NCBI GenBank assembly: GCA_013376995.1
Contig: JACAAZ010000023.1
Span: forward strand, 1 to 64,000
DNA from: Bacteroidota bacterium
Lineage (GTDB): Bacteria > Bacteroidota > Bacteroidia > Bacteroidales > UBA4417
Direction of reading: 5' to 3'
Length of the DNA: 64,000 nt
The notes beneath the pieces are model-generated. The model ran no database searches and had not been told where the DNA came from. It saw only the letters and a list, made by a program, of their open reading frames with translations. The position numbers were made by a program, and so were the translations under genes. Position 1 is the first letter of the stretch, and the number at the start of each line of letters is the position of its first letter. This document shows positions 113-52,318 of this stretch, piece after piece.

Positions 113-184
113 GGCATGAGCATGTGAGGGCGTGAGAATTTGAGGGCGAGAGAGCGGGATTGCGAGAGGGCGGGATTGGGAGAT
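113..184. repeat. Octamer tract, NNNNNGAG type
   Basis: Nine 8-nt units follow the heptamers directly: GGCATGAG, CATGTGAG, GGCGTGAG, AATTTGAG, GGCGAGAG, AGCGGGAT, TGCGAGAG, GGCGGGAT, TGGGAGAT. The period changes from 7 to 8 at about position 113. No coding potential is evident. Confidence 0.75.
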
Positions 185-199
185 TGCTGGTATGATATC

Positions 200-243
200 A
201 ACCTTTTAACCCTTGAACCTGTTAACCTTTTAACCCTTGAACC
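200..243. repeat. Octamer tract, AACCYTTK type
   Basis: Five and a half 8-nt units: AACCTTTT, AACCCTTG, AACCTGTT, AACCTTTT, AACCCTTG, AACC. This is a different unit from the neighbouring octamers. Confidence 0.75.
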
Positions 244-250
244 ACTCTCT

Positions 251-544
251 CAGAATCCGAAACCTTCACCCGGCACTCGGAACCTGGCACCCTGAACCCA
301 ACACCCAGCACCCGGCACATGGCACACGGAAAACGTATGTCTGAGGCAGGAGGAACGAAAGATAAAAGACAAAAGGAAAAAGACAAAAGATAAAAGATAA
401 AAGACAAAAGATAAAAGACAAAAGGAAAAAGACAAAAGATAAAAGATAAAAGATAAAAGACAAAAGATAAAAGACAAAAGACAAAAGGAAAAAGACAAAA
501 GATAAAAGACAAAAGGAAAAAGACAAAAGGAAAAAGATAAAAAT
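251..544. repeat. Heptamer tract switching from GGCACCC to CAAAAGA units
   Basis: Forty-two 7-nt units in one unbroken register. Units at 265-334 are of the GGCACCC / GGAACCT kind. From 356 to 544 they are CAAAAGA, TAAAAGA, CAAAAGG and AAAAAGA. The changeover at about 335-356 keeps the register. A short further run (GCAACCC, GGCACCT, GGAACCT, GGAACTT) sits at 618-645. Long Leu/Phe/Ser-rich minus-strand translations here are a by-product: a 7-nt period without stops gives the same 7-residue repeat in every frame. Confidence 0.9.
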
Positions 545-673
545 GTCCCGAAGTGGAGACTTTGGCTAAAAGATAAAAGAAGTTTCTCGTGGTTCATTGC
601 AATGGAAATGAGAACATGCAACCCGGCACCTGGAACCTGGAACTTTTCATAACATTAAACTCTATATTCCCCG

Positions 674-1333
674 ATGTGCGGACGATTTTCATTGACAGTA
701 AGTGAAGTAGAACTCAACCTGAGATTTGAACTGGAGGGGGGCATTGCACCCTACGAATCCAGGTACAATTGTGCGCCAACTCAAATGCTGGCTGTTATCA
801 CCAATCAAAATGAAAGGCAACTCAGCTACCTGAAATGGGGATTAATTCCTTCCTGGGCAAAAGATCCATCTATCGGAAATAAAATGATTAATGCACGGGC
901 GGAAACTATAGCTGAAAAGCCCTCTTATCGAAATCCTCTACGGTCACAGCGATGCCTGATTCCATCTGATGGATTCTACGAATGGAAACTAAACGGGAAA
1001 AAGATCCCTTATCGGATCTTTTTAAAGGATACACGAATATTCTCTTTTGCAGGAATCTGGGAAAAATGGAAATCACCTGATGGGGACCTGGTTCAGACAT
1101 TTACGATCATCACAACTTCTGCCAATGAATTCATGAAGTCCATTCATGAACGAATGCCAGTGATCTTAAATCCCGAAGACGAAAAACGATGGCTTCATGA
1201 AACAGATCATGCTGCTGTCATGTCATTATTAAAACCCTGTCCTCCAGACACTATGGATGCTTACCCCGTTTCTGACCTGGTGAATTCACCAAGGAATGAA
1301 GGGCCAGGAGTTTTGGAGAGGATTGGGGGATAG
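674..1333 (+). CDS. SRAP-domain protein (YedK/HMCES family)
   Basis: This is a SOS-response-associated peptidase-fold protein of 219 residues, the usual length. Family members bind abasic sites in single-stranded DNA and crosslink to them through the N-terminal Cys, protecting the lesion during replication. The family's active site is present: Cys2 (start MCGRF, the initiator Met being removed), Asn73 in MINARAE, Glu103 in DGFYEW, and His158 in SIHERMP. The ATG is fixed by the need for Cys at position 2. The gene stands alone: repeat tracts end 29 bases before it, and an octamer tract begins right after its stop codon. The function is well supported by family; why it sits among repeats is unknown. 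Confidence 0.95.
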   Translation: MCGRFSLTVSEVELNLRFELEGGIAPYESRYNCAPTQMLAVITNQNERQLSYLKWGLIPSWAKDPSIGNKMINARAETIAEKPSYRNPLRSQRCLIPSDGFYEWKLNGKKIPYRIFLKDTRIFSFAGIWEKWKSPDGDLVQTFTIITTSANEFMKSIHERMPVILNPEDEKRWLHETDHAAVMSLLKPCPPDTMDAYPVSDLVNSPRNEGPGVLERIGG

Positions 1334-8048: not shown

Positions 8049-10160
8049 CTAATAGAAAGTAAGCCTGTTATCCTTAATGTCTGCCTTTTCTTTAAGAACA
8101 GTCATGATCTGATTGTTACGGCCCTGGAAAGTCATCATCATTTGTTTTTTCTGGCTTTCAAAATCCTTGGTAGGAGGAGCATTGGTAAAATCATCAACTA
8201 TGACTACATAAACAGCCTGTTCACCCTGAATTGGTGAAGAAACCTGGCCTTTTTTCATTGCAAATATCTGACCTGTAACCTTAGGTTCATGACCATAATT
8301 AGGAATATTTGAACTTGTAAATGAAACGTCACAAGTATCAATCTTGCCTTTATACTCACTGATCAGCACGTTGATATCCTTAAGTTTTGCGAACTGGTTA
8401 TTGATCTTCTTAGTTATCATTTCAGCCTTCTTGTCCCTGATTACCAGCGGCTTAATAGGATGCTTAACAACTTCCAATGGAACAATTCCTTTTTCTACAA
8501 TGTTCTTAACTGCAGCAACAACATATTTCCCATCTGTATCGAATACATTGGAAACATTTCCTTTTTCGGTTTCTTTCTGGAATGCCCAACGTACTACTTC
8601 GCGAGCCCTGTCAACGCCTGGAAGTTTATCAGCCATCTCATCTGTGCGATCAGCACTTCTCACATTGAGGCCCTTGTCTTTAACAGTCTTATCAAATTTC
8701 TCGATTGTATTGTTGTCGGCTGCAAATGAACTTGCATCATTGTAAACGCCTTCAATAGTTTTTGTGCTGGGTTCGATCCTGCGATCTACACTGGCTACCC
8801 TGATCTTGAGGACAGGTTCTTTTTTACCGGTGATTTTGATGATGTGAAAACCGAACTGGGTTTCTACCTTGACAATATCCCCAATTTTACCATTTAGCAC
8901 TGCATTGTTAAATGCAGGAACCATAGCGCCATCAACGAACCAATCAAGGTCACCCATTTTTTTCTTGGCGGTTTCATCATCAGAAAGAGTACCAGCTATG
9001 TTCTCGAACATTGCAGGGTTCTTCTTTACAACTGCGAGGATGCTATCAGCTTCCTTTTCTGCGGCAACCTTTGATCTTTTGGCTGTTTTAATTGGAGTTC
9101 CTTCATATGAGATCAGGATATGGCTGGCTTTGAGCGAATCTGGCCTCGCCTGTTTATCCATGATCTTGTATATCTTGAGTGTATTGTTATCATCATAAGG
9201 AGGAAGGATGGTACCAACAGCTGCATGGAAAAGGATAGAATCAATGCCGGGGGAGAAAGAACCTTTTTTCTTCCAGGTACTGTCATACCTGTTGTCAGAG
9301 GATGAGTTAACAAACGTTGGAACATCAGTAACAGTCTGGAATTCCTCATAGAGTTTGCTTACATCCTGTTTGATCTTGGCCATATCTTCTTCAGAAGCTT
9401 TAGGCTCGAATACAACAAATTCAATGTCCCTGATAGGTTTCTCCTGGTAGAATTTGTACTTGTTCTCATTGTAATACTTTTCATAATCAGCGTCTGTGAT
9501 TTTAACCATACTATCAGAAACTGACTGATACCTTACACCGGCAATACGGATCTTTGCCATTTTATTTGTTTCCTCATAGTTACGCTTTGCAAACGCAGTA
9601 GGAACATAATAACCCTTGAAGATCAAATTATTGTACTTGGTGGTCAACCTGTCGGTTTTAATGGCTTTTTCCATGGCAAGGTAGCGTTCCCTCATTTTGG
9701 GATCTACATTGTCGAGATTCTGGAGAAAATTATTTACAGCCTTGGGGTCGAATTGCCCTGTTTTAGGATCTGTGAAACTCTGAATGATATATTGATGCGG
9801 ATGCTTACCACGGATCATGTCGTCGAGTTCTTCTGTCGAAACTGAAATCCCAAGCTTATCATACTGCTTGTTCATGATAATTTCATTCAGCATCTGTTCC
9901 CAGGTTCCCTGACGGATCTGAAAACTTTCGTCGGCAGTGATATTATCCTTACCGGTATTAGCTTTTTGAAGTTCTATATTCTCCTCAACCTTCCTGTTGA
10001 ATTCAATAGCGGAAATCTTTTCCCCGGCTATAACGCCAATAGTATCTGTATGTTTTGACCTTTTTCTTGAAAAGTCGCTGAGAACAAAAAGTAACAGCGC
10101 TACACCGATAATGACGACAAGCAACCAATAATGTTTACGAATTTCTCCAATGATAGCCAT
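8049..10160 (-). CDS. PpiD/SurA-like periplasmic peptidyl-prolyl isomerase
   Basis: A 703-residue membrane-anchored foldase. Residues 11-29 form one membrane segment next to a short cytoplasmic tail. A long SurA_N-type chaperone region follows (about 35-330). One parvulin domain lies near residues 340-450, recognised by KASHILISYEG, the G-D-L-D-W-F motif and the FGFHIIKITG end. A second long C-terminal chaperone region follows. Proteins of this type assist outer-membrane protein folding. It is last in a five-gene minus-strand run with coaX, a barrel protein, lptC and a CNNM protein, and a strong terminator follows. The single parvulin domain makes it more PpiD-like than SurA-like. Confidence 0.9.
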   Translation of the reverse strand: MAIIGEIRKHYWLLVVIIGVALLLFVLSDFSRKRSKHTDTIGVIAGEKISAIEFNRKVEENIELQKANTGKDNITADESFQIRQGTWEQMLNEIIMNKQYDKLGISVSTEELDDMIRGKHPHQYIIQSFTDPKTGQFDPKAVNNFLQNLDNVDPKMRERYLAMEKAIKTDRLTTKYNNLIFKGYYVPTAFAKRNYEETNKMAKIRIAGVRYQSVSDSMVKITDADYEKYYNENKYKFYQEKPIRDIEFVVFEPKASEEDMAKIKQDVSKLYEEFQTVTDVPTFVNSSSDNRYDSTWKKKGSFSPGIDSILFHAAVGTILPPYDDNNTLKIYKIMDKQARPDSLKASHILISYEGTPIKTAKRSKVAAEKEADSILAVVKKNPAMFENIAGTLSDDETAKKKMGDLDWFVDGAMVPAFNNAVLNGKIGDIVKVETQFGFHIIKITGKKEPVLKIRVASVDRRIEPSTKTIEGVYNDASSFAADNNTIEKFDKTVKDKGLNVRSADRTDEMADKLPGVDRAREVVRWAFQKETEKGNVSNVFDTDGKYVVAAVKNIVEKGIVPLEVVKHPIKPLVIRDKKAEMITKKINNQFAKLKDINVLISEYKGKIDTCDVSFTSSNIPNYGHEPKVTGQIFAMKKGQVSSPIQGEQAVYVVIVDDFTNAPPTKDFESQKKQMMMTFQGRNNQIMTVLKEKADIKDNRLTFY

Positions 10161-10352
10161 TTGTATAAATTTTATGTGTTCCTCAAAAAGAGGCGCAAAT
10201 TTACAATAAATCCCGAAGTTGAAAAATAATTTTACGAATTTCGGATTAAATAGCAGAGGAAATTCTTTATGTATGAAGTAATTAGAGAATTGACCCGCTC
10301 AGAAACCCTGCCTGATGGCATTTTTTATCAACAAATTACCAAAATGTAATGA

Positions 10353-15090: not shown

Positions 15091-16704
15091 ATGTCAGAAA
15101 AACGTCGAAGTTTTATATACCTGCCTATTGCATTTGCCCTGGTCCTCATCCTGGGGATCGTTCTTGGATATTACCTGCTCAGGGTTTCATTTGTACTAAA
15201 TCACCCGTTATTGAAAATGGGCAGCAAGGGCGGATCCATTCCTGAACTGATCAGGTACATTGATCAAAATTATGTTGACACTGTAAATCCTGAAAACCTG
15301 CAGAAAGAAGCCATCGACGGGATGCTGCTCAGTTTGGACCCTCATTCGCAATACATTCCTGCATCAGAATTCCATGATGCCAATGATCCTCTGATGGGTA
15401 ACTTTGACGGGATCGGGGTTCAATTCCGTATTGAGCATGATACGATTGTTGTAATCAACACGGTTTCCGGAGGGCCATCTGAAAAACTGGGCATACTCGC
15501 CGGTGACAGGATTGTTAAGGTAGATGATAAAAATGTAGCCAATATCAAGATCACTAATGAAATGGTGATGAAGAAGCTGAAAGGGCCTAAAGGAACTAAG
15601 GTTAAGGTTGGCATTTTCAGGAAGGGCTTGAAAAAACTTATCGACTTTACCATTACAAGGGATGTAATTCCAACCTGGAGCATCGATGTGTCATATGCTG
15701 TTTCAAAAAATACAGGCTATATTAAACTCAGTAAATTCAGTGCAACAACCCATGATGAACTGGTTGAATCAATGAAAAAGCTGAAAAAAGAAGGTGTTAA
15801 CAAACTCATCCTTGACTTACGGGAAAATTCAGGAGGATACCTGAATGAAGCCATCGCAGTTGCCGATGAATTCCTGCCTGCTGACAAACTTATCGTTTAT
15901 ACCAAAGGTCTGCACAGGCCGAAACAAGTTGCAACCTCTACCTCAGAAGGCGAATGGGATAATCTTCCCGTTGTTGTTCTGATTAATGAGAATTCAGCAT
16001 CAGCAAGTGAAATTGTTGCCGGAGCCATACAGGACAATGACAGGGGTGAAATCATTGGCAGGCGTTCTTTTGGAAAAGGATTGGTCCAGGAGCAGATTAA
16101 TCTTTCTGATGGTTCCGCCCTCCGCCTTACGGTTGCCCGCTATTACACTCCTACAGGCAGATGTATCCAGAAACCTTATACCAAAGGAGCAGACGATTAT
16201 TACATGGAATATTACCACCGTTACGAAGATGGAGAACTTGAGAGGGCAGACAGCATTAAAATGGTGGATTCCCTGAAGTTCAAGACACCAAAAGGAAAGA
16301 TCGTTTATGGCGGCGGCGGTATTATGCCGGATATTTTTATACCGATAGAAAAGGGGCCAAATTTTAAGTTTTTCAATGAAACTTTCAGGAAGGGCCTGCT
16401 CTATCAATTTGCATTTGACTACACAGATCAGCACAGGCAGGAGTTGAAGAAACTTGGCGACTTTAATGCTTTCGACAGGAAATTCACGGTAACTCCTGCT
16501 ATTTATTCGGAGTTTGTTGCCTATACCGGTAAAAACGGTATTTCTTCAAAGCCAGAGGAAGTGAAGGCTTCAACACCCTATATTTCAGATCTTATTAAGG
16601 CATATGTAGCGCGGAACCTTTTTGATGATAAGGGCTTCTACCCTATCTACCTACGTACGGACAAAGGATTCCAGCGAGCAGTCCAGGAACTCTCCAAGAA
16701 ATAG
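15091..16704 (+). CDS. Carboxy-terminal processing protease (CtpA, S41 family)
   Basis: A 537-residue S41 peptidase. The order is an N-terminal membrane anchor or uncleaved signal (9-30), a PDZ domain (about 105-190, with GIGVQFRIEHD and the GPSEKLGILAGDRIV loop), and the S41 core. The catalytic dyad is Ser304 in NSASASEIV and Lys329 in RSFGKGLVQ, 25 residues apart as in other CTPs. Such proteases trim periplasmic proteins from their C-termini, for instance amidase regulators or lipoproteins. The long tail after residue 400 is normal for Bacteroidota CTPs. Confidence 0.93.
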   Translation: MSEKRRSFIYLPIAFALVLILGIVLGYYLLRVSFVLNHPLLKMGSKGGSIPELIRYIDQNYVDTVNPENLQKEAIDGMLLSLDPHSQYIPASEFHDANDPLMGNFDGIGVQFRIEHDTIVVINTVSGGPSEKLGILAGDRIVKVDDKNVANIKITNEMVMKKLKGPKGTKVKVGIFRKGLKKLIDFTITRDVIPTWSIDVSYAVSKNTGYIKLSKFSATTHDELVESMKKLKKEGVNKLILDLRENSGGYLNEAIAVADEFLPADKLIVYTKGLHRPKQVATSTSEGEWDNLPVVVLINENSASASEIVAGAIQDNDRGEIIGRRSFGKGLVQEQINLSDGSALRLTVARYYTPTGRCIQKPYTKGADDYYMEYYHRYEDGELERADSIKMVDSLKFKTPKGKIVYGGGGIMPDIFIPIEKGPNFKFFNETFRKGLLYQFAFDYTDQHRQELKKLGDFNAFDRKFTVTPAIYSEFVAYTGKNGISSKPEEVKASTPYISDLIKAYVARNLFDDKGFYPIYLRTDKGFQRAVQELSKK

Positions 16705-26521: not shown

Positions 26522-26830
26522 CAGTAGTTTTCTATTGTGATTTCAATTGTGTCCTATGTGCCTGTTGTGGTGAATATTTGAAACACATTAGGCACAGTAG
26601 TTTTCTATTGTGATTTCTATTGTGTCCTATTTGCCTATTGTAGTGAATATTTGAAACACATTAGGCACAGTAGGGCGCAGTAGTTTTCTATTGTGATTTC
26701 CTATTGTGTCCTATAAGCCTGTTGTGGTGAATATTTGAAACAAATTAGGCACAGTAGGGCGCAGTAGCTTTCTATTGTGATTTCCTATTGTGTCCTATGT
26801 GCCTAATGTGGTGAATAATTGAAACAATAG
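26522..26830. repeat. Four tandem hairpin-bearing repeats after leuS
   Basis: Units begin at 26522, 26595, 26678 and 26762, each with CAGTAGTTTTCTATTGTGA or a near variant, and are 73, 83, 84 and about 69 bases long. Inside each is TGTGCCT-NN-TGTG, then about 14 bases, then CACATTAGGCACA, its near-complement. Each complete unit can therefore fold into a hairpin of about 11 pairs; the last unit lacks the right arm. The gap 26445-26852 has no gene. Confidence 0.85.
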
Positions 26831-30078: not shown

Positions 30079-30505
30079 GGAGGCAGTAAGCAAGAGATAA
30101 AAGATAAAAGGCAAAGACAAAAAGCAGGTGGCAGGAGGCAGGTGGCAGGTGGCAGGTGGCAGGTGGCAGGTGGCAGGTGGCAGGTGGCAGAAGATAAAAG
30201 ATAAAAGACAAAAGACAAAAGACAAAAAGCAGTAGGAAGTAGGAAGTAGGCAGAAGATAAAAGATAAAAGATAAAAGACAAAAGGTAAAAGACAAAAAGC
30301 AGTAAGAAGTAGGCAGGTGGCAGTGGGCAGTAGGCGGGACTCTGTAAGCAGTAATTGGTTGGCAGTAAGTGAAATACAGGAAGCAATATTTGGAATGTAC
30401 CTTTATCTGTTCCCTTTTAACTTTTGTCTTACCCCTTTTATCTTTTGTCTTCTAAATTCCTACTTCTTCCGGCTTCCGGCTTCTGACTTCTTACTTCTTA
30501 CTTCA
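30079..30505. repeat. 61-unit heptamer tract between acd and etfB
   Basis: One 7-nt register runs from 30079 to 30505. From 30079 to 30372, 42 purine-rich units alternate in blocks: GTGGCAG repeated, then AAGATAA / AAGACAA, then TAGGAAG / TAGGCAG, and back. Four irregular units follow (30373-30400). Then 15 pyrimidine-rich units in the same register (TTTTATC, TTTTGTC, GGCTTCC, TACTTCT) continue into the stop codon of the acyl-CoA dehydrogenase at 30498-30500. Apparent open frames here are repeat artefacts. Confidence 0.92.
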
Positions 30506-51230: not shown

Positions 51231-51573
51231 AGCTGGGAGTCGGAAGGCCGAAGTCCGAAGTCCGAAGCTGGGAGACTGAAGTCAGGAGTCCGAAGTCCGA
51301 AGCCGGAAGATAGAAGCTGGAAGACATAAGTTTGGAGACCGAAGTCCGAAGTCGGAAGGCCGAAGTCCGAAGTCAGAAGCTGGGAGACTGAAGTCAGGCG
51401 TCCGAAGTCCGAAGCCGGAAGATAGAAGCTGGAAGACATAAGTTTGGAGACCGAAGTCCGAAGTCGGAAGGCCGAAGTCCGAAGCTGGAAGACAGAAGTC
51501 CGAAGCCGGAAGACAGAAGTTGGGAGACTGAAGTCAGGAGACCGAAGCCAGGAGACTGAAATCGGGTGACAGA
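51231..51573. repeat. 49-unit heptamer tract with a 112-bp internal duplication
   Basis: All 343 bases fit one 7-nt register. Most units match AG-N-N-N-G-A or AG-N-N-N-G-G (AGTCCGA, AGCTGGA, AGACTGA, AGCCGGA, AGATAGA). Units 6-21 (51266-51377) recur as units 22-37 (51378-51489) with only a few differences, so a 16-unit block has been duplicated. Apparent open frames on the minus strand are repeat artefacts. Confidence 0.92.
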
Positions 51574-51625: not shown

Positions 51626-51979
51626 TCAATTGATTTTGTCTTTAAAAGATACCATCATATTCATGAGATTAAATGCAAACTCATAGTGGACATTGAAGTC
51701 TGCGTCCGAAATATACTCTCTGCGCTTAGCCTTATACAAGCAGGTAACTACCTCAGCAAGGGAGCGTATTGAGTAGCCCATAAACTTTCTGTATTCAGCA
51801 TTGGATTGACCTATAGCCCCTTCCGAAATATTTAAAGCTATCGAATCTGCTGCTCTTCTTATTTGAGAAGTAAGATTATAGATTTCTATTGGCGGAAATT
51901 TGTTAGAAAGAATATGTATACTCTCACCATAATCCATGGCCTTCTGCCAAATGACTAACTTTTCAAACTTAAATTTCAT
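51626..51979 (-). CDS. Four-helix-bundle protein (S23 / Avd-like family)
   Basis: A 117-residue protein of the four-helix-bundle family that includes 23S rRNA intervening-sequence proteins and the Avd accessory protein of diversity-generating retroelements. Marks are FEKLVIWQKAMDYGESIH, the R-R-A-A-D-S-I-A-L-N-I-S-E-G core in helix 2 (about 41-55), and EYRKFMGYSIRSLAEV. Family members bind nucleic acid. No reverse transcriptase is in the window, so a retroelement role is not supported here. The gene is flanked by a purine-rich heptamer tract (51231-51573) and a pyrimidine-rich one (52201-52318). Confidence 0.9.
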   Translation of the reverse strand: MKFKFEKLVIWQKAMDYGESIHILSNKFPPIEIYNLTSQIRRAADSIALNISEGAIGQSNAEYRKFMGYSIRSLAEVVTCLYKAKRREYISDADFNVHYEFAFNLMNMMVSFKDKIN

Positions 51980-52200: not shown

Positions 52201-52318
52201 TCCTGGTCCTCTGACTTCTATCTCCCGGCTCATAAAATCCATCTTCAGGTTTCCAGCTAACGACTTCCGGCCCCTGACACCGACTTCCGGCTTCTGACTT
52301 CCAGCTTCATCTCCTGAC
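52201..52318. repeat. Pyrimidine-rich heptamer tract upstream of ileS
   Basis: Seventeen units of the CTTCCGG / CTTCTGA kind, with one 6-nt unit at 52278-52283. The units are the complement of those at 51231-51573, so the two tracts face each other across the four-helix-bundle gene. The rest of the gap 51980-52413 holds nothing else that I recognise except the ileS promoter region. Confidence 0.8.

Follow-up and report, generated by a model that had tools for sequence, protein, structure and literature searches.

A composite degenerate heptamer array and the prevalence of period 7 among intergenic tandem repeats of a Bacteroidales-like bacterium

How can a tandem array exchange one repeat unit for a very different one and still count in sevens? 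The question is raised by the first bases of a 64,000-nucleotide stretch of DNA (the window), where GGCACCC-like heptamers are followed by AAAAGAC-like heptamers. Position 1 of the window is base 1 of contig C16, in a 5.05-Mb assembly of 43 contigs from an uncultured, Bacteroidales-like host. The initial annotation of this DNA had counted 42 units between 251 and 544, described a complete change of unit in unbroken register, held that slippage does not easily give such a change, and proposed that the 7-nt spacing itself is made or selected, for example through a template or a spaced protein. The arrays, and the genes next to them, are listed in Table 1.

Table 1. Tandem arrays of the window and adjacent genes, in window coordinates.
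Feature	Position	Strand	Measure or context
Compound of tandem arrays	first 660 bases		periods 7, 16, 8, 7, transition, 7
Heptamer array, GCCGGAA/GGAAGTC-like, runs off the contig start	1-112	+	lag-7 identity 0.78
Period-16/8 array, GGGCGAGA-like, non-heptameric	113-199	+	lag-16 identity 0.70
Period-8 array, AACCTTTT/AACCCTTG	200-243	+	lag-8 identity 0.78, lag-24 identity 1.00
Degenerate heptamer array, GGCACCC-like, about 9 units	265-329	+	lag-7 identity 0.71
Transition, about 4 irregular units intermediate between the GGCACCC-like and AAAAGAC-like types	330-357	+	
Heptamer array of AAAAGAC/AAAAGAT/AAAAAGG units, 26.4 copies	358-542	+	TRF period 7; lag-7 identity 0.83
Short GGAACCT-like heptamer stretch	621-643	+	31 bases upstream of the next gene
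ORF of 219 aa, MCGRFS start, presumably SRAP family	674-1333	+	downstream of the arrays
Second composite heptamer locus (GCAGGTG, AAAAGAT/C, GAAGTAG), partly inverted	30124-30504	-	between etfB-like and acyl-CoA-dehydrogenase-like genes (presumed names)
Third heptamer locus (GAAGTCC/GAAGCTG)	51235-51560	+	112-nt (16 x 7) segment duplicated at 98% identity

The tandem periodicity and the two differing unit types are both real. TRF finds either array (the GGCACCC-like one at 267-329, with period 7 and 9 copies), and base shuffles, which give lag-7 identities of about 0.32 for 267-329 and about 0.55 for 358-542, reached the observed values in 0 of 5000 trials. Other parts of the first description did not hold. 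Only about 35 of the 42 units are well formed: there is hardly any 7-nt periodicity at 251-264, and the core of the junction (323-364) is weakly periodic, with a lag-7 identity of 0.46 (shuffle P 0.016), which rises to 0.57 over 316-371 (P 0.0004). The supposed abrupt switch is instead a passage through intermediate units, in the succession GGCACAC GGAAAAC GTATGTC TGAGGCA GGAGGAA CGAAAGA TAAAAGA.

The constancy of register proves to say little. Whatever frame is chosen, a 7-periodic array divides into heptamers, which makes the statement that no register shift occurs nearly empty. GGCACCC and CAAAAGA match at one of seven positions in phase and at three of seven in the best other rotation; the units are unrelated, and their relative phase is therefore undefined. 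Phase is meaningful solely where units resemble each other. Since the next-door arrays have periods of 8 (200-243) and 16 (113-199), the wider locus has no constant 7-nt register either. TRF likewise reports period 16 at 113-183 and, at 1-78, period 7 with 11.1 copies. A similar row of period-7, period-8 and period-16 arrays, in an order like that of positions 1-243 and with an N run between, is present at 100-700 of locus L208.

Downstream of the arrays lies the 219-aa ORF that we take to be a SRAP-family gene. Its best matches, at 63-69% identity, were found in 10 of the 10 same-genus genomes searched, and its nearest named relatives are Bacteroidales MAGs. At L036 a CAGTCAG heptamer array (10149-10187) lies within the coding sequence of an SRAP gene as an in-frame insertion, giving 22 residues more than the window's protein has there. 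Elsewhere in the window, the second heptamer locus has a mirror-image inverted partner, and a minus-strand transcript of 30124-30504 could form a long hairpin (z -2.1). At the third, TRF reports a period of 112 over 51238-51484 (2.2 copies, 98% matches); the heptamer arrays at 51235-51560 and 52282-52308, in opposite orientation, flank a 117-aa ORF (51626-51979) that presumably encodes a four-helix-bundle protein. TRF also reports a 63/70-nt duplication in the window that contains both unit types. A tandem repeat at 26522-26827, with a 73/84-nt unit rich in CTATTGTG, is unrelated to the heptamers.

Period 7 prevails well beyond this locus. Lag-p match scoring of 864 kb of this genome gave 32 strong tracts with period 7, six with period 11, and none to two for every remaining period from 2 to 13; the stretches were sampled at fixed coordinates, except L197, which holds an array known beforehand. 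Shuffles in an earlier 464-kb pass yielded at most one tract beyond two N runs. The reported tract is a heptamer tandem array longer than expected by chance, and seven is the commonest tandem unit length among periods 2-13 in the 864 kb, where 28 heptamer clusters were counted; extrapolation gives about 150-160 for the genome. In several species of the same genus period 7 is likewise dominant, though the units are others (TGGTGAC, TAAGGAG, GCACTAA, TGGTGAG and CGTGTTA), and it prevails in same-genus species of differing G+C. Other, less sampled species of the genus have few or no period-7 tracts. Eight genomes from other families of the order gave one tract in about 228 kb sampled, and at SRAP-gene loci of other phyla period 7 is not special. 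The idea of a genome-wide 7-nt period that does not depend on the unit sequence is thus borne out, in this genome and in several of its genus.

Arrays of eight, nine and eleven nucleotides are also present. The 11-nt arrays of the GAATGACNATN type number 74 pattern matches in this genome and occur in small numbers in 6 of the 12 same-genus genomes, and their unit, unlike those of the heptamers, is kept across the genus. They lie at L219-L224, elsewhere in this genome (G000) and at L036 9700-9810; several contigs end in them, and an array similar to this type occurs in a Lentimicrobiaceae MAG.

The STRR heptamers of cyanobacteria are tandem 7-nt repeats dispersed in the genome. Membership of the present tract in that family was rejected on the phylum of its Bacteroidales-like host, which sets it apart by host and not by unit comparison; heptamers of Calothrix are mentioned in PMC4692102. 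More generally, heptanucleotides are described as the commonest class of long simple sequence repeat in most genomes surveyed (Mrazek, Guo and Shah 2007, as related in PMC4679880 and PMC4692102). Like the tract described here, the repeats of that account are 7-nt tandem units above chance, mainly intergenic, with seven the commonest length. The arrays of the present genome differ from them, as far as that account goes, in being degenerate and composite, with several unit types at a locus and a species-specific vocabulary. Intergenic tandem heptamers were also reported with the SPADE program in 2018 (PMC6344855); relative to the passages describing these, the unit change within an array and the turnover at orthologous sites are what is described here.

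Two further families are close in kind. The GGGAATC and GGGGA(T/C)T repeats of Xanthomonas and Nostoc are likewise intergenic heptamers, which lie between the same genes in related genomes and vary in length and sequence (according to the account in PMC4692102). They are G-rich with quadruplex potential, whereas the AAAAGAC and GGCACCC units have no GGG, and membership in a G-quadruplex class was rejected on the lack of any run of three G in these two units. The TAACTGA repeats of Beggiatoaceae, Cyanobacteria and some Bacteroidetes also form intergenic heptamer arrays, but with one conserved unit near start codons, as PMC4679880 presents them, while here the unit is free and the position not fixed. 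TAACTGA is absent from 244-545, and membership was rejected on that ground. The tract is an instance of a known, widespread heptamer class, and the window holds nothing outside it. The present analysis adds that units that are free, a vocabulary specific to the genome, intermediate units and turnover of sites come together in one genus.

Turnover was seen at four array sites traced to orthologous genes across the genus. Among nine sisters with sequence upstream of the SRAP gene, three have clear period-7 arrays there (CATCCGA; CCCTAAT), a fourth has a weak TTTGC-rich one, another has period-8 and period-9 arrays, and four have none. Set against the roughly 7-9% of gaps that hold arrays generally, this gives P of about 0.03-0.05, and an enrichment of the SRAP site in sister species is suggestive only. 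At the other three sites, arrays were found in 0 of 10, 1 of 7 and 0 of 10 sisters, the last count leaving aside an array that is weak and distal. Apart from this distal tract, the sisters have nothing comparable upstream of the genes that we take to be etfB-like and cystathionine-lyase-like; the one array of 1 in 7 lies upstream of a presumed aldehyde-dehydrogenase-like gene, where the unit differs (GCACTCA/GCACAAA). From species to species, sites gain and lose arrays, usually with period 7.

Within arrays, units can be followed as they change. One array drifts stepwise through GACAAAA-GATAAAA-GTAGGAA-GTCGGAA-GCCGGAA, and another through AAAGACA-AAAGAGT-AGGCAGT-ATGCAGA. Over 21 unit changes in this genome and its relatives, old and new units matched on average at 3.38 of 7 positions in phase 0, compared with 1.86-2.05 in the six other phases; the measure uses consensus windows adjoining the junction and covers related units as well. 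Given this in-phase likeness and the stepwise drift, the usual course is the derivation of one unit from another, and not the arrival of an unrelated unit of equal length. Units of the AAAAGAC and GCAG types meet at one relative phase at 30124 and at another in L128, a difference that independent joining would explain as well as drift.

Units are also shared between loci. Exact units common to separate loci were found in 67 of 483 tract pairs within this genome, compared with 14 of 483 when letters were shuffled within units; between this genome and four sister species the count was 14 of 736 pairs. AAAAGAY triplets number 157 in this genome and 1 in 12 same-genus genomes, and they were found in one further genome among 147 of the phylum. 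Such sharing is not what independent births with random units would produce, so arrays or array segments were probably copied or homogenised within the genome. No conserved order or phase of block types was found across loci, and no conserved unit between species. At L034, two inverted GGGACTT arrays (15513-15728 and 16183-16250), about 450 bases apart, are strongly alike; in the genome overall, inverted pairing is not in excess (inverted score 10.8 at the own locus against 12.3 at other loci), a few striking cases apart.

We consider it fairly probable that the tract is a composite degenerate heptamer array which arose by slippage or unequal exchange within the period, together with point mutation, and with copying between arrays. 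Slipped mispairing or unequal exchange would alter the length by multiples of the existing period, so that the 7-nt period would be inherited. Point mutations would alter units, and local amplification of variant units could then leave blocks of differing units in one array, while part of the genome's unit vocabulary may have spread between loci via recombination or copying of array segments. Slippage, exchange and spread are molecular events that we infer; the duplications in multiples of seven are directly observed. The assertion that slippage could not yield a change of unit is not supported; against it stand the junction intermediates, the in-phase likeness of neighbouring units and a toy simulation of mutation, in-period slippage and rare indels, in which, with assumed rates and an assumed acceptance rule, the founder unit is replaced and period 7 mostly stays. 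Against drift at the reported junction are the single consensus position kept out of seven and the weak periodicity of the transition. A bias towards seven at the birth of arrays is left unexplained by slippage and mutation.

It is possible, though rather unlikely, that the two blocks are instead separate arrays juxtaposed by recombination or insertion, with a shared period that merely reflects a heptamer-rich genome and a register that is a bookkeeping effect. The poor in-phase agreement of GGCACCC and CAAAAGA favours such a join, as do the adjoining blocks of periods 8 and 16 and a unit vocabulary common to multiple loci, and the dominance of period 7 makes neighbours of equal period expected. 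It sits less well with the lag-7 continuity across the junction, which is weak but above chance, and with the in-phase likeness of units at junctions overall.

A more far-reaching proposal is that a cellular process indifferent to sequence, such as the grip of a polymerase, favours 7-nt duplications, so that a new array starts out with period 7 and a unit of any sequence. Seven nucleotides has been put forward as the length that contacts DNA polymerase (Mrazek et al. 2007, as related in PMC4679880 and PMC4692102), and the dominance of period 7 whatever the unit, across several species of the genus that differ in units and G+C, speaks for it, as do orthologous-site arrays that differ in unit and mostly keep period 7. 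In intergenic DNA outside called arrays, moreover, exact runs of 9-10 matches at period 7 number 5 against a mean of about 1 in this genome, and 9 against about 2.3 in the sisters. This excess may consist of decayed arrays, however, and is missing from short runs in coding DNA, although selection against frameshifts would hide it there. The units common to several loci are unlike random births, and arrays of 8, 9 and 11 nt exist too. We regard such a process as doubtful. That it makes new intergenic duplications preferentially with period 7 in this genus, with spacing and not sequence as the heritable or generated trait, we hold to be improbable. Of the suggestion that the 7-nt period itself is favoured, the dominance of period 7 stands, while a dedicated process is not needed.

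Selection for a 7-nt spacing, whether for protein binding or for use by a transcript or an encoded peptide, is very improbable. Cold-shock proteins are reported on heptamer direct repeats, one protein per heptamer (in the account of PMC4679880), and the three minus-strand frames of the tract are nearly free of stops (0, 1 and 1 per 100 codons). Peptide coding was nevertheless rejected, since a 7-periodic tract gives the same codons in all frames and open minus-strand frames follow from any such tract. For the reported tract, an Rfam search gave no match, RNA folding was no better than in shuffles (z 0.33), and no promoter-like site was found. Of 24 placeable arrays, none falls within an ORF, with the proviso that the ORF caller leaves out ORFs made mostly of array, and no preference was found for gene arrangement, gene side, start-codon proximity or purine strand. 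With neither a strand or gene-orientation preference nor a conserved site, there is no sign of the template or protein spacing first proposed; no unit is conserved between species, and most orthologous sites are without arrays. Nothing points to a function; the arrays seem mainly neutral, and tolerated where they lie between genes. An assembly artefact is barely credible: the tract lies at a contig end, and contigs of this assembly often end in repeats, but like arrays occur at many loci well away from contig ends, in genomes that were assembled independently, and in one 100%-complete genome (G032), on a contig of 2.3 Mb.

No cause for the dominance of 7-nt repeats in intergenic DNA of bacteria has been accepted since the 2007 report. 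The genus amounts to a natural experiment, in which related genomes have the period in common but differ in units, and orthologous sites acquire and lose arrays. The origin of period-7 arrays can therefore be told apart here from the inheritance of their sequence.
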